From the NCBI RefSeq assembly GCF_001563475.1, contig NZ_LPUT01000001.1:62001-126000 (forward strand): a stretch of DNA of 64,000 bases, in the 5' to 3' direction. The DNA is from Sporosarcina sp. HYO08. GTDB taxonomy: Bacteria > Bacillota > Bacilli > Bacillales_A > Planococcaceae. The notes below the pieces were generated by a model that did not search any database, was not told the DNA's origin, and saw only the letters and a list, made by a program, of their open reading frames with translations. Positions 3,883 to 17,408 of the stretch are shown piece after piece. Numbering within the stretch: the first letter of the stretch is position 1; each line of letters begins with the position of its first letter. Position numbers and translations under genes: made by a program.

Positions 3883-3930
3883 TGTGATAAAAATCACAGC
3901 CCTTTCTGGAAATTGTCCGTACGATTAAAT
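3883..3930 (+). promoter_or_regulatory. Crp/Fnr-type box and promoter of the first heme-copper operon
   Basis: TGTGATAAAAATCACA at 3883-3898 is a perfect TGTGA-N6-TCACA palindrome, centre 3890.5. A -10-like TACGAT at 3920-3925 would put the start site near 3932, so the box would sit at about -41.5, the class II activation position of Crp/Fnr proteins. There is no good -35, as expected for an activated promoter. The start site is inferred, not seen. Confidence 0.7.
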
Positions 3931-4009: not shown

Positions 4010-4534
4010 ATGATTCAATTCATTGCATGGGTCGTAAGTTTATTCTGTATGTTGGCCATTGCGTTTGTTTTCGTATTTGTCGCATTGAAATCCGGCCAGA
4101 GAGAGAACTACGAACCAATCGTTAAAAAATGGTATAAGGTACGGAAAGTGTATGGCATTTCGCTCGTTGTTTTGATAGCGATTGTTAGCGTTTACACATT
4201 AAGAAATCTTCCGTACAACCAGCCGGTTTACGGAAAAGGAATTGAACCGATCGTAGTAGGTGTCGAAGCGTTTCAATTTGGCTTTGACATTAGCCAACGT
4301 GAATTTAATGTGGGCGACTCTGTAGAATTTGATGTGACAACGGCAGATGTAACGCATGGTTTTGGCATTTACGATGAAGACATGAACTTGATTGCCCAGA
4401 CACAAGCAATGCCAGAGTATACGAATACCGTATACATCACCTTCACAAAACCAGGAACTTACCAAATCTTATGTCTCGAGTATTGTGGTCTGGCACACCA
4501 CATTATGGTCGATCAGCTCGTTGTAAAAGAATAG
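4010..4534 (+). CDS. CuA-containing subunit II of a B-type heme-copper enzyme (operon 1)
   Basis: A 174-residue electron-entry subunit. Two N-terminal hydrophobic segments (about 1-26 and 46-64) are followed by a cupredoxin domain outside the membrane. All CuA ligands are visible: His116 in V-T-H-G-F, then Cys155, Glu157 (backbone ligand position), Cys159, His163 and Met166 in C-L-E-Y-C-G-L-A-H-H-I-M. An upstream ATG at 3977 is in frame, but AAAGGAGG at 3992-3999 selects the ATG at 4010. It starts an operon with subunit I and a small membrane protein. A CuA site means the donor is probably a cytochrome c rather than quinol. This is a cytochrome oxidase subunit II by family; the partner subunit I suggests nitric oxide reduction instead. 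Confidence 0.88.
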   Translation: MIQFIAWVVSLFCMLAIAFVFVFVALKSGQRENYEPIVKKWYKVRKVYGISLVVLIAIVSVYTLRNLPYNQPVYGKGIEPIVVGVEAFQFGFDISQREFNVGDSVEFDVTTADVTHGFGIYDEDMNLIAQTQAMPEYTNTVYITFTKPGTYQILCLEYCGLAHHIMVDQLVVKE

Positions 4535-4550
4535 GAAAGGAGCAGGAAGG

Positions 4551-6029
4551 ATGGGGGCAAATACTGTTTTAAAGACAAGAAATAATCAAGTCGTTTTACA
4601 GCTTATTATTTCTGGGGTTGTCATCGTCGCAATGATCGTTTTTGGCGTAATTATGTTACTGGCGCAAGGTGGGGTAATCGAGCTTAGCGCTGCGGCATTT
4701 TATCAAATGTTAACAATACATGGAACCGGTATGATCGGTGCGGCGGCTTTGGCAGGCAGCGCAGTGATGTGGTATTTTCTCGATCATTATGTCAATTTAT
4801 CCAAAAAAATTTTTAATACAAATCTAATTTGCTTTTTAATCGGTGTTGTGATGGTAATCATCGGTGTGTTTTCTTTTGAATATGCAAGTGGGTGGACATT
4901 TTTATATCCACTTCCGGCGTTATCGGCAGGCGCATGGGGAACAGTTGGCGCACTGCTTTACCTCGGCGGCATGCTGCTTATAGGGGTTGGCTTTTTATTA
5001 TTATTTATCGATACGGGAAGGGCAATTATTCAAAAATACGGAAGTCTAGGAAAAGGGCTCGGCTGGGATGTCATTGCTGGGAAGAAATCCGAACTGGATG
5101 CACCGCCGGCAGCTGTTGTAGCGAGTACAATGGTGACAATCGTGAATATTTCCGCTTTAACGGCAGGAGCGACAGTTCTTGTTATGAATATTATTAATGT
5201 CGTGAATCCAGCAATTACATTTGATCCTTTACTTGCGAAAAACTTAACCTATGCGTTTGGTCATATTTTTGCTAACTCAACCATTTACATGGCAGTCGTT
5301 GCGGTGTATGAAATTTTATCACGGGCGACGAATCGACCTTGGAAATCTAATAAGCCATTTTTAATTGCCTGGACGTCGTCAACGATTTTAACAATGATTG
5401 TCTATCCGCATCATTTGCTGATGGATTCTGTGATGCCGAAATGGATTTTAGTTATGGGGCAAGTCTTATCTTATGCAAACGGATTGCCAGTCTTAATCAT
5501 TACCGCATACGGCGCATTAATGATCGTCTATAAATCTGGCATTAAGTGGGAAATGCCATCTGCTCTGATGTTTTTATCAATGTTCGGTTGGACTTCGGGG
5601 GCGATTCCTGCAATTGTTGATGCGACGATTGTCGTTAACCATGTCATGCACAACACGAAATGGGTGCCGGGTCATTTCCATTTGTATATGGGGCTTGGGG
5701 TTGTCGCGATGGTATTCGGCTTTATGTATTATTTAGCTAAAAACGATAGCAGCATTCAAACAAATGGCATGGATCGATTCGCTTTCGTCGTTTATTTATT
5801 ATCCATGTTGGGCGTAAGCGGATCGTTTCTTGTTTCGGGTGCAATCAGTACACCAAGACGTTTTGCAACACATATTCCAGAGTGGATGGGCCCGGCACAA
5901 TTTGGCGCCTACTCCGGTATTTTAGTTGCCCTTGCATTGTCTATTTTTATCATTCATTTTGTACGTTATCTTGTTGTTCGAAGAAAGGCATTGCCTACAA
6001 CCGGACGTGCGCAGCAAGGTATGATTTGA
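4551..6029 (+). CDS. Heme-copper catalytic subunit I lacking the active-site tyrosine; probable NO reductase (operon 1)
   Basis: A 492-residue membrane protein with about 12 hydrophobic segments. Metal ligands are intact: low-spin heme His57 (T-I-H-G-T-G) and His377, high-spin heme His375 (V-P-G-H-F-H), and CuB His238 (A-F-G-H), His287 and His288 (Y-P-H-H). In oxygen-reducing enzymes of the ba3 type a tyrosine four residues after the first CuB histidine is cross-linked to the next CuB histidine; here that position is Asn242. Loss of this tyrosine is known in nitric oxide reductase families of the superfamily, including the CuA-dependent enzyme of Bacillus azotoformans. I infer NO reduction. 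It is shorter than ba3 subunit I (about 560) and only distantly similar to the subunit at 14429. Spacing to subunit II is 16 bp. Confidence 0.82.
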   Translation: MGANTVLKTRNNQVVLQLIISGVVIVAMIVFGVIMLLAQGGVIELSAAAFYQMLTIHGTGMIGAAALAGSAVMWYFLDHYVNLSKKIFNTNLICFLIGVVMVIIGVFSFEYASGWTFLYPLPALSAGAWGTVGALLYLGGMLLIGVGFLLLFIDTGRAIIQKYGSLGKGLGWDVIAGKKSELDAPPAAVVASTMVTIVNISALTAGATVLVMNIINVVNPAITFDPLLAKNLTYAFGHIFANSTIYMAVVAVYEILSRATNRPWKSNKPFLIAWTSSTILTMIVYPHHLLMDSVMPKWILVMGQVLSYANGLPVLIITAYGALMIVYKSGIKWEMPSALMFLSMFGWTSGAIPAIVDATIVVNHVMHNTKWVPGHFHLYMGLGVVAMVFGFMYYLAKNDSSIQTNGMDRFAFVVYLLSMLGVSGSFLVSGAISTPRRFATHIPEWMGPAQFGAYSGILVALALSIFIIHFVRYLVVRRKALPTTGRAQQGMI

Positions 6030-6067
6030 AATAAGTGGCGCAACAATCGTGAAAGGAGAGTTTCAAG

Positions 6068-6634
6068 ATGAAACAAATGATTGGCGGGGGGATTTTGTTT
6101 CTATTGTTAGGAATTCCTTTTACGATTGTTTTTTTGGAGTCGATGATGGTGATCCATATGCTCGTTCAAATCCCATTGCTCATACTTGCGGGGTGGTTGA
6201 TGGGGGCAGGCGTGCTACAAAAGTTCCCACGTTTTTTTGCAAATTGGAATGGCAATGGCGTTTCGGGTATTTTACTAGTATCGATTATTTTAATGTACTG
6301 GATGCTACCGCGTGCGATGGACGAAGCATTGTTAGGCGGTTGGATAGAATTGTTTAAATTTATTAGCCTGCCCGTTGCTGGACTATTCATTAGAGATAGT
6401 TGGACTAAACTAAAAACGAATGGAAAAAGCTTTGTTTTTTTAAACTTCCTGTCGATGTTTGGATTAATGGGCTGGTTATACATGGATGCACCGATTCAAT
6501 TGTGCAACAATTACTTGGAGTTAGAGCAAAAAGCATTGGGCTGGGGGTTTTTGGCCATTACGTTGGCGATGATTTTATATTTGTTACAGAACGTTTTTAT
6601 GGATCATTCTGGCAGGGAGCACGAACCATTATGA
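6068..6634 (+). CDS. Small integral membrane protein of heme-copper operon 1
   Basis: A 188-residue protein with about five hydrophobic segments and no family name I recognise. It is clearly homologous to the protein at 16854-17408, which sits at the end of the second heme-copper operon. Shared blocks are E-S-M-x-V/I-I-H-M, W-N-x-x-G-x-x-G-I-L-L, Y-W-M-x-P-R-x-M-D-E-A-L, F-K-F-I-S-L-P, R-D-S-W and Q-L-C-N-N-Y-L. Conserved His, Met, Cys and acidic residues in or near the membrane suggest metal or heme handling, an assembly role or an accessory subunit. The ATG at 6068 follows GGAGAG. It is 38 bp after subunit I and ends the operon. Confidence 0.75.
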   Translation: MKQMIGGGILFLLLGIPFTIVFLESMMVIHMLVQIPLLILAGWLMGAGVLQKFPRFFANWNGNGVSGILLVSIILMYWMLPRAMDEALLGGWIELFKFISLPVAGLFIRDSWTKLKTNGKSFVFLNFLSMFGLMGWLYMDAPIQLCNNYLELEQKALGWGFLAITLAMILYLLQNVFMDHSGREHEPL

Positions 6635-6638
6635 AGGA

Positions 6639-6671
6639 ACACGGAAGAGGCTGCGATCTTCCGTGTTTTTC
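6639..6671 (+). terminator. Terminator of heme-copper operon 1
   Basis: ACACGGAAGA pairs with TCTTCCGTGT around an 8-nt loop, followed by TTTTC. Confidence 0.88.
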
Positions 6672-12689: not shown

Positions 12690-12757
12690 GTTAAATAGAA
12701 GTAAATATGTTAAAATAAGCATATAGTAAGGTGATCGTTTAGGAGGTGCGCATTAAT

Positions 12758-13444
12758 TTGGATCAATTAAAAAACATCGTTAAAAATATCTCGTTATTTA
12801 AAGATTTATCCGAAGAGGAAATCGAGCCATTTCTGGAATTAATGAGAAAAAAAGATTATCCAGATAAAAGCATGATCTTTTTACATGACACACCTATCAC
12901 TCATGTATATATCGTTGCTTCGGGAAAAGTAAAAGTGTTCCGTAATGATTTAGCTGGAAAAGAACAGATTATTTGTGTGAAGCAGCGTGGGGATATGTTC
13001 CCGAATGTTGGTTTTTTCCGGAAAGAAAATTATCCGGCGCATGCACAAGCGATTGAAGATACGGCACTCTATTCCATTTCCATTACGGATTTTGAAGCAG
13101 TACTCATAGCGAATCCACATATTTCGGTGAAATTATTCAGAATGCTGGGTGATCTCATCGTAGATACAAATAAAAGATTAGAAGAAATGGCCCTTCGCAG
13201 TACAAATGAACGCATCCTGTTGCTGTTATTGCGTTTAAGTGAATCGCATGGAACAGAGCAAAAGGATGGGTGGTTAAAGTTAAATACTAAATTTACAAAT
13301 ACCGATTTAGCCAATATGATCGGTACAACGAGGGAATCCGTCAACCGTATGATTTCACACTTGCGGAAAGATGGGAAAGTGAAACAAGTAGAGGGTAGCT
13401 ATTATATTTATCCACCAAAAATAAAGGAAGAATTAGATCAATAA
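12758..13444 (+). CDS. Crp/Fnr-family transcription regulator without Fe-S cysteines
   Basis: A 228-residue regulator: cyclic-nucleotide-binding-like beta-roll (about 14-110), dimer helix and winged HTH (about 148-225). The recognition helix T-T-R-E-S-V-N-R-M-I has Arg-Glu-x-x-x-Arg as in E. coli Crp, which fits the TGTGA-N6-TCACA boxes seen at 3883 and 13712. The only cysteine is in I-I-C-V-K, so it cannot hold the 4Fe-4S cluster of Fnr; it may sense heme-bound NO like DNR, a metabolite, or thiol state. The start is TTG at 12758 after AGGAGGTG at 12741-12748. It stands directly before the second heme-copper operon and probably activates both operons. Confidence 0.88.
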   Translation: MDQLKNIVKNISLFKDLSEEEIEPFLELMRKKDYPDKSMIFLHDTPITHVYIVASGKVKVFRNDLAGKEQIICVKQRGDMFPNVGFFRKENYPAHAQAIEDTALYSISITDFEAVLIANPHISVKLFRMLGDLIVDTNKRLEEMALRSTNERILLLLLRLSESHGTEQKDGWLKLNTKFTNTDLANMIGTTRESVNRMISHLRKDGKVKQVEGSYYIYPPKIKEELDQ

Positions 13445-13711: not shown

Positions 13712-13754
13712 TGTGATAAATATCACATCGGTGAGAATGATTATCAAATACTAT
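13712..13754 (+). promoter_or_regulatory. Crp/Fnr-type box, Fur/PerR-type box and promoter of the second heme-copper operon
   Basis: TGTGATAAATATCACA at 13712-13727 is a perfect TGTGA-N6-TCACA site centred at 13719.5. A -10-like TACTAT at 13749-13754 puts the start near 13761, so the box sits at about -41.5. TGAGAATGATTATCA at 13732-13746 matches the 7-1-7 Fur consensus with one mismatch and lies between the activator site and the -10, where binding would repress. This suggests activation by the neighbouring regulator and repression under iron-replete or peroxide-free conditions. Confidence 0.7.
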
Positions 13755-13785: not shown

Positions 13786-13938
13786 ATGGAAGCAAGAGAA
13801 GTGGACATCAAAAAGAAAGCATCAAATCAACCGGAAGAACTATCGCATAGCGGCACAATGTTCTCATTAAGTATTGTTATGGCAATCATCGTATTTACGT
13901 ATCTTGTTCTCATGTTTGTCTTTAATGCTAGAGTTTAA
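13786..13938 (+). CDS. Subunit IIa-like single-helix peptide of heme-copper operon 2
   Basis: A 50-residue protein. The first 24 residues are polar and a single hydrophobic helix follows (about 26-46, S-L-S-I-V-M-A-I-I-V-F-T-Y-L-V-L-M-F). Size, position before the subunit II gene and sequence character match the subunit IIa family of ba3-type oxidases, a lone helix that replaces the missing first helix of subunit II. The ATG at 13786 follows CGGAGGTGA. Operon 1 has no such peptide; there subunit II has two helices. Confidence 0.72.
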   Translation: MEAREVDIKKKASNQPEELSHSGTMFSLSIVMAIIVFTYLVLMFVFNARV

Positions 13939-13952
13939 GGAGGGGAAAGAAA

Positions 13953-14414
13953 ATGCCACGCAGTGAAAAGATCTGGCTTACCTTAAGTTTCGGAATCATT
14001 ATGGGTTTTATGTTAATCGTTGGTTATCAAGCGTTTGCGCTAGAATTAGGTCCGCCAAGTCACAAGGAAACAATTGATCCGCAAAAAGTGGATGAAACGG
14101 CACCATTCGATAACCCGGGTGTTTTTCAAACGGGCGACAATGAATATGAAGTTGTCATGGTTTTGCAAGCATTTAGCTACACACCGCATGAAATCGAAGT
14201 GCCTGCAGGGGCTAAAGTAACGTTTACGTTAACAACTAAAGACGTTATCCACGGTTTTCAAATCGCAAGAACAAACGTTAACGCAATGGTAGTTCCAGGG
14301 CATATTCAAAAAATTACACAAACGTTCAAAGAACCAGGCGAGTATTTAGTGCTTTGTAACGAATATTGTGGAATCGGTCACCAAATTATGGGGACTACCA
14401 TCACGGTTAAATAA
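13953..14414 (+). CDS. CuA-containing subunit II of a B-type heme-copper enzyme (operon 2)
   Basis: A 153-residue protein with one N-terminal helix (about 8-28) and a cupredoxin domain. The CuA ligands are His100 (V-I-H-G-F), Cys135, Glu137, Cys139, His143 and Met146 in C-N-E-Y-C-G-I-G-H-Q-I-M. The single helix plus the separate IIa-like peptide at 13786 is the arrangement of Thermus ba3. It accepts electrons from a cytochrome c outside the membrane and passes them to subunit I. The start ATG at 13953 follows AAGGAGGGGAA; it begins 14 bp after the peptide gene and ends 14 bp before subunit I. Confidence 0.9.
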   Translation: MPRSEKIWLTLSFGIIMGFMLIVGYQAFALELGPPSHKETIDPQKVDETAPFDNPGVFQTGDNEYEVVMVLQAFSYTPHEIEVPAGAKVTFTLTTKDVIHGFQIARTNVNAMVVPGHIQKITQTFKEPGEYLVLCNEYCGIGHQIMGTTITVK

Positions 14415-14428
14415 GGGAGGGACCAAAT

Positions 14429-16126
14429 GTGACAACAGTGAATGTAGGCGCCTCGGAACGATCACTTAAGCAAAAGGTAGAACAGGCATTGGGAGTCGTT
14501 GCTGAAGACGCTAAATTATCGAAGTCATATATGACTGTTGCATTTATCGCATTATTGATCGGTGGGTTTTTAGGATTATTTCAAGGGTTGGAGCGCGCAG
14601 GACTTATTCAATTACCTTCGTGGTTTACGTATTATCAGGTATTAACAGCGCACGGGATCTTACTCGTACTCGTCTTAACAGCCTTCTTTACAATCGGTTA
14701 TTTTTACGCAGGGCTATCGCAAGTGCTTGGCGGTATATTGCCCCATGTTAGACGGATGGCATGGATTGGTTTTTGGTTAAAAATTGTTGGGTTTGTTTGC
14801 GCGGTTATTCCAATTATTATGAATGACGCAACTGTCATGTTCACGTTTTATCCGCCAATGGCTGCATCCCCATTATTTTATATCGGGCTGGCTTTAATCG
14901 TCATCGGAGTTTGGATGTGCGCATTCGGCGCATTTATCAATGTAGCCACATGGAGAAAGCAAAATCCTGGAAAACAAATTCCAATCTTTGCCTTCTTCGC
15001 GACAGGTGTATTTGTTCTATTGTTCTTCGGAAGCATCGGCGTTACGATTGAAGTCATTATGCTGATCTTCTGGTCAGCCGGAATTCTTGAAACGATAAAC
15101 GTTATGGTGAGCCGTACATTGTTCTGGTCTTTCGGTCACACACTCGTTAACATTTGGTACTTAACAGCTGTTTCAGCATGGTATACAATCGTTCCAAAAA
15201 TTATTGGCGGCAGACGTTTTAGCGATACGTTAACACGCGTCGTTGTCATCCTGCTCGTTATTACAAACATACCAGGTGGATTCCACCACCAAATCGTTGA
15301 CCCGGGAATGGGAGAAGCACTAAAATACATGCACGTATTTATGAGTCTTGCCATTGGTTTTCCATCTTTAATGACTGCTTACGCAATGTTCTCGGTGTTT
15401 GAGCGTACAGGGCGCTTAAAAGGTGGAAAAGGTTTACTCGGATGGTTTAAAAAATTGCCATGGGGCGATGTGCGATTCTTGGCTCCTTTCATTGCGATGG
15501 CAGCATTTGCGCCGGCTGGGGCGGGCGGAATCGCTCAAACTACGAACCAATTGAACCAAGTTGTGCATAACACATTATGGGTTGTCGGACATTTCCACTT
15601 AACTGTCGGAACATCAGTTGTCCTAACATTTTTCGGAATTAGTTACTGGTTGATTCCACATATTTCAAAACGTGTCCTAACACCGCAAATGAATAGAATT
15701 GGGATTATCCAAACAATTATTTGGACAGTTGGTATGCTCTTCATGTCGGGGGCGATGCACTACGTTGGATTACTCGGTTCACCGCGTCGTACATCGTACA
15801 CAACGTATGGTGACCATGCAGTTGCACTGGGATGGGATCCGTATATGATTCTATTGGCAATCGGCGGCACGTTATTGATCGTCGGCGTCATCATTCAAGT
15901 TTACGCAGTATTTAATATGATGTTCTTTGCACCAAAAGGAAAAACTGAATTCCCAATTGCAGAGACTGAAGAAGAGCCGCAAGGGAAAAAACCAGCACTT
16001 TGGGCAGATCGTTGGGGACTTTGGATTGTTCTTATGCTATTAGTCGTTTCAATGGGCTATGTCATTCCATTAGTGGATATGATTGTTAATGCGCCTCCAG
16101 GTTCACCGCCAATTCGAACTTGGTAA
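14429..16126 (+). CDS. ba3-like heme-copper subunit I with Tyr-to-Asn change; probable CuA-type NO reductase (operon 2)
   Basis: A 565-residue membrane protein with about 13 hydrophobic segments that aligns along its length with Thermus ba3 subunit I. Ligands: low-spin heme His75 and His390, high-spin heme His388, CuB His237, His286 and His287. Where ba3 oxidase has G-H-P-I-V-Y (cross-linked Tyr237), this protein has G-H-T-L-V-N, so the catalytic tyrosine is Asn241. Known oxygen reductases need that tyrosine; NO reductases lack it. The CuA-dependent NO reductase of B. azotoformans is a published precedent for a ba3-like CuA enzyme acting on NO. I infer the same function; a tyrosine-free oxidase is the alternative. 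GTG start at 14429 after GGGAGGG. Confidence 0.85.
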   Translation: MTTVNVGASERSLKQKVEQALGVVAEDAKLSKSYMTVAFIALLIGGFLGLFQGLERAGLIQLPSWFTYYQVLTAHGILLVLVLTAFFTIGYFYAGLSQVLGGILPHVRRMAWIGFWLKIVGFVCAVIPIIMNDATVMFTFYPPMAASPLFYIGLALIVIGVWMCAFGAFINVATWRKQNPGKQIPIFAFFATGVFVLLFFGSIGVTIEVIMLIFWSAGILETINVMVSRTLFWSFGHTLVNIWYLTAVSAWYTIVPKIIGGRRFSDTLTRVVVILLVITNIPGGFHHQIVDPGMGEALKYMHVFMSLAIGFPSLMTAYAMFSVFERTGRLKGGKGLLGWFKKLPWGDVRFLAPFIAMAAFAPAGAGGIAQTTNQLNQVVHNTLWVVGHFHLTVGTSVVLTFFGISYWLIPHISKRVLTPQMNRIGIIQTIIWTVGMLFMSGAMHYVGLLGSPRRTSYTTYGDHAVALGWDPYMILLAIGGTLLIVGVIIQVYAVFNMMFFAPKGKTEFPIAETEEEPQGKKPALWADRWGLWIVLMLLVVSMGYVIPLVDMIVNAPPGSPPIRTW

Positions 16127-16180: not shown

Positions 16181-16215
16181 TAAAAGGGACAAAATGACAG
16201 AAGGAAGTGGGTTTC

Positions 16216-16857
16216 ATGCAAGCAAAAAAACGTCATACGATCGCTGTCATTGTTGTTTTGTTATTCGGGTTTGCACTTTTTTACATCGGTACGGATGGTT
16301 TTACGGCCTATACGGCTGAAACGGCTCGGGTTAATAAACTAATGGCGGAAAAGCCGCAGTTTCCTAATGTCACATTTGAGGATAGTAATAAACGACAATA
16401 TTCAATGGATGAATTTGCGGGGAAGTATGTATTGGCAACATTTATTTATACATCATGTACGACCGTTTGTATTGATTTGGAAATGAATATGTCAGAAGTG
16501 TATGACCTGCTCCCAAAACAAATGATCGGCAAGGATATACAGTTTTTAAGCATTAGCTTTGATCCGGAAAAAGATGATCCGGAAACATTGGACACGTATA
16601 AGACGATGTTTCCAAATGCGGATGGGGATCAATGGCGCATGACAAGAATTCAAGACCCTAATGAGTTGAAACAATTACTCGACGAATTCGGCGTGATCGT
16701 AATACCGGATGAATATGGAAATTACGCGCATAACTCTGCGTTTTATTTGATCGATCCAGAAGGCACTTTAATCGAAGTGATGGATTATACGAAAATCGAA
16801 GAAGCTGCGCAAAAGATTGTGCAAATCGTCGGTGATGAAAAGGGTGATTCGCTATGA
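16216..16857 (+). CDS. Sco1/SenC-family copper chaperone
   Basis: A 213-residue membrane-anchored thioredoxin-fold protein. An N-terminal helix (about 8-25) is followed by the Sco motif C-T-T-V-C (Cys81, Cys85) and the copper-binding His172 in Y-A-H-N-S-A-F. Sco proteins deliver copper to, or reduce, the CuA site of subunit II. The start is placed at the ATG at 16216 after AAGGAAGTGG; a GTG at 16207 lies within that binding site. It overlaps the next gene by ATGA. Being co-encoded with the CuA enzyme of operon 2, it may also serve operon 1, which has no Sco gene. Confidence 0.9.
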   Translation: MQAKKRHTIAVIVVLLFGFALFYIGTDGFTAYTAETARVNKLMAEKPQFPNVTFEDSNKRQYSMDEFAGKYVLATFIYTSCTTVCIDLEMNMSEVYDLLPKQMIGKDIQFLSISFDPEKDDPETLDTYKTMFPNADGDQWRMTRIQDPNELKQLLDEFGVIVIPDEYGNYAHNSAFYLIDPEGTLIEVMDYTKIEEAAQKIVQIVGDEKGDSL

Positions 16858-17408
16858 CACAAGCTGGTTATGGACTTGCGCTGTTGCTCTTTTTAGCCAT
16901 CCCGCCAATCGCGCATTTGTTTGAATCAATTATGATTATTCATATGCATATGCAAATGCCTTTGTTGGTCATTTCCGGATTTTTTATCGCTACGTTTTTT
17001 CAAAAAAGGTATCCTGGATTTTTTGAGAAGTGGAATGAAGACGGTATTCCGGGCATTCTTTTATTTTCAATTGTTTTTTCCTATTGGATGATTCCGCGGA
17101 CAATGGATGAGGCATTGACGGTTCCAGCGGTGGAAGTGTTCAAATTCATCAGCTTGCCATTTTTATGTGGTGTTCCATTGCGGGACAGCTGGTTTAAAAT
17201 TAGTTTGTTTGTGAAAAAAATCGTGTTCGCAACGTTTACATTACTATTTTTTGCGCTCGGCGTTTTATATATTAAAGCACCTGTTCAACTGTGTAATAAT
17301 TATTTATTAATCGACCAATTGACACTTGGCTGGGGCTTTTTAACAATGGCGATCTGCTTTATGATTTTTATTGTTTACTATGTTTTTACAGAAAAAGAGG
17401 CGACATAA
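16854..17408 (+). CDS. Small integral membrane protein of heme-copper operon 2
   Basis: A 184-residue protein, homologue of the one at 6068-6634. The blocks E-S-I-M-I-I-H-M-H-M-Q-M-P-L-L, Y-W-M-I-P-R-T-M-D-E-A-L, F-K-F-I-S-L-P, R-D-S-W and V-Q-L-C-N-N-Y-L are shared. The first helix is rich in His and Met (H-M-H-M-Q-M), which suggests copper contact. It has about five hydrophobic segments. It is translationally coupled to the Sco gene (4-bp overlap). I know of no assigned function. Its recurrence at the end of both heme-copper operons marks it as an accessory or assembly component. Confidence 0.78.
   Translation: MTQAGYGLALLLFLAIPPIAHLFESIMIIHMHMQMPLLVISGFFIATFFQKRYPGFFEKWNEDGIPGILLFSIVFSYWMIPRTMDEALTVPAVEVFKFISLPFLCGVPLRDSWFKISLFVKKIVFATFTLLFFALGVLYIKAPVQLCNNYLLIDQLTLGWGFLTMAICFMIFIVYYVFTEKEAT

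Follow-up and report, generated by a model that had tools for sequence, protein, structure and literature searches.

The window, a stretch of 64,000 nucleotides from a Sporosarcina-like strain, carries operons for two CuA-containing heme-copper enzymes about 8 kb apart, both with an asparagine in the position where oxidases have a cross-linked tyrosine. What kind of enzyme is encoded at 4010–6634, and which reaction does it catalyze? Judged from its residues and its place in a family tree, it is a member of the known family sNOR (qCuANOR type II; NorSY in nitrifiers), and it probably reduces NO to N2O without a K-channel, beside an electrogenic bNOR encoded by the second operon. The definitions of sNOR and bNOR are taken from PMC11388526, PMC8756737 and PMC3475470, bNOR being the name used in the later papers for qCuANOR type I.

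Gene layout and metal ligands

The operon consists of three genes, for a CuA subunit II, a heme-copper subunit I and a third membrane protein (Table 1). The reading frame of subunit II is open from 3977, and the start is most likely at 4010, since relatives begin at a homologous methionine (M-V-Q-T-V-A-W). An earlier note on this DNA had described subunit II as a complete CuA protein, and subunit I as a chain of 492 residues with all metal ligands and Asn242 at the tyrosine position; both descriptions hold. All CuA ligands of subunit II (His116, Cys155, Glu157, Cys159, His163, and Met166) are present, each kept by 95% or more of the 80 rows compared, and two TM segments are located at the N terminus. 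Subunit I matches PF00115 at 166.6 bits, and its six ligand histidines (His57, His238, His287, His288, His375, and His377) are invariant in an alignment of 79 rows that includes the window sequence, as are Tyr246, Tyr253, Asp292, and Asp357. Asn242 lies four residues after His238, in the position of the cross-linked Tyr237 of Thermus ba3, and is present in 78 of the 79 rows, the remaining row having an unknown base. Where the B-type ba3 O2 reductases have tyrosine at H+4 of helix VI, the sNOR alignment thus has asparagine. Structure modeling, proposed earlier as a check together with a phylogeny, gave a subunit I with 12 TM helices (mean pLDDT 83.7, pTM 0.88). A fold search with subunit I returned A-, B- and C-type heme-copper oxidases with no useful ranking among them, and the assignment to a type therefore rests on sequence.

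Gene order across 77 classifiable related sNOR loci is II-I-SCO-III in 38, II-I-SCO in one, II-I-III in 13, and II-I in 25, the window operon having the SCO-less II-I-III form. Because the SCO/SenC gene, the usual companion of sNOR, is absent in 38 of these 77 loci as well as from the window operon, a linked SCO gene is not counted as defining sNOR. Twenty-five Neobacillus/Cytobacillus-like loci (L073, L082–L115) encode subunits II and I only, with neither SCO nor the third protein. Subunit II is shortened in N. bataviensis (L090), and in three genomes (L040/L041, L067, and L091) subunit I is encoded in two separate frames, through either decay or assembly error.

The third membrane protein is common to the ends of both NOR operons. 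Twelve of 27 members match PF07185 (best 1.8e-6), and DUF1404-like proteins of this type are conserved across phyla. The predicted model is confident (pLDDT 93), and a PDB fold search with it gave nothing at E < 0.001, which does not show a new fold. A relationship to CtaG was considered and rejected, the probability being 0.2% when profiles were compared with the CtaG encoded in the same genome. The protein probably serves in assembly or in another accessory role.

Table 1. Features of the sNOR and bNOR operons and their surroundings (window positions)
Feature	Position	Strand	Remarks
Crp/Fnr-type operator TGTGATAAAAATCACA, 111 nt before subunit II start	3883..3898	+	exact TGTGA-N6-TCACA
sNOR subunit II, norS-like; two TM helices and CuA cupredoxin domain	4010..4534	+	PF00116; CuA ligands kept
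sNOR (qCuANOR type II) subunit I, norY-like, Asn242	4551..6029	+	PF00115, family alignment, tree, model
Third membrane protein, DUF1404-like	6068..6634	+	44% identity with last gene of bNOR operon
Terminator-like hairpin with T run, directly 3' of third gene, closing the sNOR operon	6635..6670	+	
Crp/Fnr-family regulator, CRP-like recognition helix (TRESVNR), without Fe-S cysteines	12746..13444	+	
Crp/Fnr-type operator TGTGATAAATATCACA before bNOR operon	13712..13727	+	exact TGTGA-N6-TCACA
50-aa one-TM protein, counterpart of 46-aa cbaC in the B. azotoformans bNOR cluster	13786..13938	+	position and size as in PMC3475470
bNOR subunit II (CuA), Glu of B-type K-channel entrance (MPRSEKIW)	13953..14414	+	
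bNOR (CuANOR, qCuANOR type I) subunit I, Asn at Tyr position	14429..16126	+	
SCO1/SenC copper chaperone; neither operon has another	16207..16857	+	PF02630
Paralogue of third membrane protein, bNOR operon	16854..17408	+	44% identity to 6068–6634

Relatives in Bacillota and in nitrifiers

Two CuA NO reductase clusters were described in Bacillus (Schinkia) azotoformans LMG 9581 by Heylen and Keltjens (2012; PMC3475470), and the type I cluster was identified with the purified CuANOR. In the type II enzyme they noted the Asn and a subunit I shortened to 12 TMHs; its subunit II has two TM segments, and the cluster also includes SCO and a gene for a protein with 4–5 TMHs. As for this enzyme (BAZO_04695–04710), the window operon combines the same Asn with a short 12-TMH subunit I, a two-TM CuA subunit II and a third membrane protein, in the order II-I-III, but the B. 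azotoformans cluster includes a SCO gene that the window operon lacks (PMC3475470). The subunits I of the two enzymes are 59% identical (L070). The sNOR of Nitrosomonas and other Betaproteobacteria (NorSY-SenC; PMC8756737 Table A4, PMC6967387) likewise has the Asn, a CuA subunit and no predicted proton channel, but belongs to a different phylum, and its operon in nitrifiers contains SCO/SenC.

The pairing of bNOR and sNOR seen in the window is already reported, and was previously described in Bacillus. Their presence within one Bacillota genome is reported as common, with qNOR, bNOR and sNOR together in 26 genomes of this phylum and sNOR seldom alone (PMC11388526). In our searches, bNOR was co-present in six of seven Bacillota sNOR genomes (67–85% identity). 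The linkage of the two operons recurs, since complete bNOR and sNOR operons adjoin divergently in Mesobacillus maritimus (L110:1332–7425).

A scan of named genomes yielded 80 relatives, mostly from Bacillaceae, with additional ones from Rhodocyclaceae, Burkholderiales, Thiohalobacter and Mariprofundus; none were found in the viral contigs scanned. In the phylogeny, all sNOR sequences cluster together with support, separately from a group in which bNOR is joined with Tyr-bearing B-type oxidases (96% SH-aLRT), and the window enzyme is placed in groups of 99–100% SH-aLRT with the B. azotoformans type II enzyme and, further out, the proteobacterial rows. It lies outside the bNOR group and does not keep the bNOR K-channel residues. 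Six features of sNOR are accordingly found together: the six histidines, the Asn, the two-TM CuA subunit II, the short 12-TMH subunit I, the lack of most B-type K-channel residues, and the placement in the tree. Because the Asn rows do not form one clade, an ancestor with tyrosine would most simply have lost it twice, the root position not being settled by the tree.

Enzymes 52% identical to that of the window are present in 2 of 12 AmoA-bearing Burkholderiales genomes and group with the proteobacterial rows or close to them, which ties the window clade to nitrifier sNOR if AmoA is taken as the mark of a nitrifier. On the same grounds, the sNOR of nitrifiers seems to be of type II and not, as stated in PMC3475470 (data not shown), of type I. 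A B-type-like enzyme encoded near sNOR in a Ramlibacter MAG (Burkholderiales; L121:1–1684, minus strand) has Gln in place of the Tyr, as is listed for eNOR, and a split neighbor of sNOR in L111 is similar to it.

Proton channel and regulation compared with bNOR

The two enzymes of the window are both B-type-like CuA enzymes with Asn at the Tyr position, a third membrane protein and a Crp/Fnr box. The earlier note had judged them only distantly similar, rightly so, because identity is 27% over the aligned half of subunit I (239 aa), and bNOR has a single-TM subunit II and a longer subunit I. The latter is 66% identical to the type I enzyme of S. azotoformans LMG 9581 (L134). The 50-residue protein encoded in front of the bNOR subunits has no Pfam match.

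The residues of the B-type K-channel we take to be Tyr244, Tyr248, Ser309, Thr312, and Glu15 of subunit II (ba3 numbering). In a residue comparison, Tyr244, Ser309 and Thr312 are present in the Tyr-bearing B-type enzymes. In bNOR, Tyr244 is replaced by Val, while Ser309 and Thr312 (PSLMT) and the Glu of subunit II (SEKIW) are kept, and the enzyme groups with Tyr-bearing B-type oxidases. Unlike bNOR, sNOR has Val or Ile in place of Ser309, in addition to Val in place of Tyr244, one residue is inserted before Thr312, and the N-terminal helix of subunit II is without Glu, only Tyr248 of the channel being clearly kept. The B-type oxidase of Thermus, ba3, has the same fold, six histidines and CuA as the window sNOR, but it is an oxidase with Tyr237 and a complete K-channel. 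By this comparison, sNOR has lost most of the K-channel residues that bNOR retains. The residue differences agree with Table A4 of PMC8756737, which lists Asn and no proton channel for sNOR (Betaproteobacteria, Geobacillus), and Asn and one proton channel for CuANor (Bacillus). For the CuANOR of B. azotoformans, electrogenic turnover was reported, with an analogue of the K-pathway as the probable route and a respiratory control ratio of about 2.4 (PMC5826923). Since the K-channel residues are mostly absent in sNOR, its protons probably do not pass through a B-type K-channel, and the enzyme is probably not electrogenic, or less so than bNOR.

Both operons are preceded by an operator of the same kind (Table 1). 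With at most one mismatch, the box occurs upstream of sNOR subunit II in 30 of 79 related loci, compared with 1% of shuffled copies, and in Bacilli a Crp/Fnr box before sNOR is a conserved feature. The regulator encoded at 12746 is a candidate controller of both operons, and a Crp/Fnr-family protein would probably turn on both under low oxygen or NO. Two more exact TGTGA-N6-TCACA boxes (446–461 and 488–503) precede a DoxX-family gene (PF07681, start about 564), which may for that reason share the regulon.

Catalytic function and genome context

In the proposed mechanism, electrons would enter sNOR at CuA on subunit II and proceed via the low-spin heme (His57/His377) to the high-spin heme (His375) and CuB (His238/His287/His288), where two NO would be converted to N2O and water. 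The cross-linked Tyr that Asn replaces is the fourth electron donor for O–O cleavage in oxidases, and its loss would fit a two-electron reaction with NO. Activity of sNOR as a NO reductase is probable; no purified-enzyme assay of it was found in the literature searched. The SCO protein encoded with bNOR probably supplies copper to the CuA site of sNOR.

The genome encodes NarG (1837 bits) and a NirK-like lipoprotein that scores 193 bits, under the TIGR02376 cut-off of 296 bits, with multicopper domains and copper-binding motifs present. Genome searches gave no match for NosZ, cNOR or qNOR, and because the latter two have no match, the searches leave sNOR and bNOR as the only candidates for a heme-copper NOR. 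From its gene content, the genome looks like that of a nitrate-to-N2O partial denitrifier. Its oxidases are a caa3 enzyme and one Tyr-bearing B-type enzyme.

A main function in high-affinity O2 reduction, which has been proposed as a possible role of Nitrosomonas sNOR, would be in line with the ability of heme-copper centers to reduce O2, and with a 2.7- to 10.8-fold increase of sNOR transcription in N. europaea under O2 limitation (PMC6967387). For the window enzyme we consider it unlikely, as the redox Tyr is absent in all readable relatives and no invariant Tyr exists at the C-type position, caa3 and Tyr-bearing B-type oxidases are already available in the genome, and the common Crp/Fnr box links sNOR to the bNOR operon. 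We would likewise be surprised if sNOR were not chiefly a NO reductase and catalyzed some other reaction at its Tyr-free site, such as the reduction of O2 when oxygen is low; if this were true, the bNOR/sNOR pair would divide two different jobs under one regulator. A tyrosine reaching CuB from another helix, as in C-type cbb3 enzymes, is scarcely credible, although Tyr285, two residues before the helix-VII histidine pair, is present in 92% of the rows, and Tyr246 and Tyr253 are invariant. The C-type redox Tyr, six residues before the pair, was not found in any of the 79 rows (Thr in 70, Val in 9), six of the 79 have Phe or Trp for Tyr285, and Tyr246 and Tyr253 would be located some two and four helical turns beyond His238 on helix VI, presumably too far away to cross-link a CuB histidine. 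The earlier note had named such a tyrosine as an objection to its own reading, and it does not apply here.

That note had left a choice between a pair of NO reductases, unlike in affinity or conditions, and one NO reductase alongside a still undescribed activity. The former is the better reading, the two being of different types, sNOR (qCuANOR type II) and bNOR (qCuANOR type I). An activity other than NO and O2 reduction could be suspected from the presence of two Asn-type CuA enzymes in one genome, but is highly improbable considering that bNOR is 66% identical to the purified CuANOR, and that many Bacillota have this pair together with genes for reducing nitrate and nitrite. It is also not needed, both types and their co-occurrence having been published (PMC3475470, PMC8756737, PMC11388526). 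The short subunit I does represent a little-studied branch, as had been suggested, but not an unrecognized one, since both types are in the literature (PMC3475470, PMC8756737 Table A4, PMC11388526).

With NO reduction by sNOR as the preferred reading, the details added here are the contrast in K-channel residues, the Crp/Fnr boxes at both operons, the common DUF1404-like protein, and the NOR context of the genome. The sNOR enzymes are a likely source of N2O in bacteria, and standard annotation labels them cytochrome c oxidase (PMC11388526). The genome provides a clean pair, one NOR predicted to have and one predicted to lack a B-type K-channel, with the same kind of operator. Because of this pair, and of a background with no cNOR or qNOR match, the Sporosarcina-like strain would be a simple host for asking what role sNOR plays and whether energy is conserved by it.
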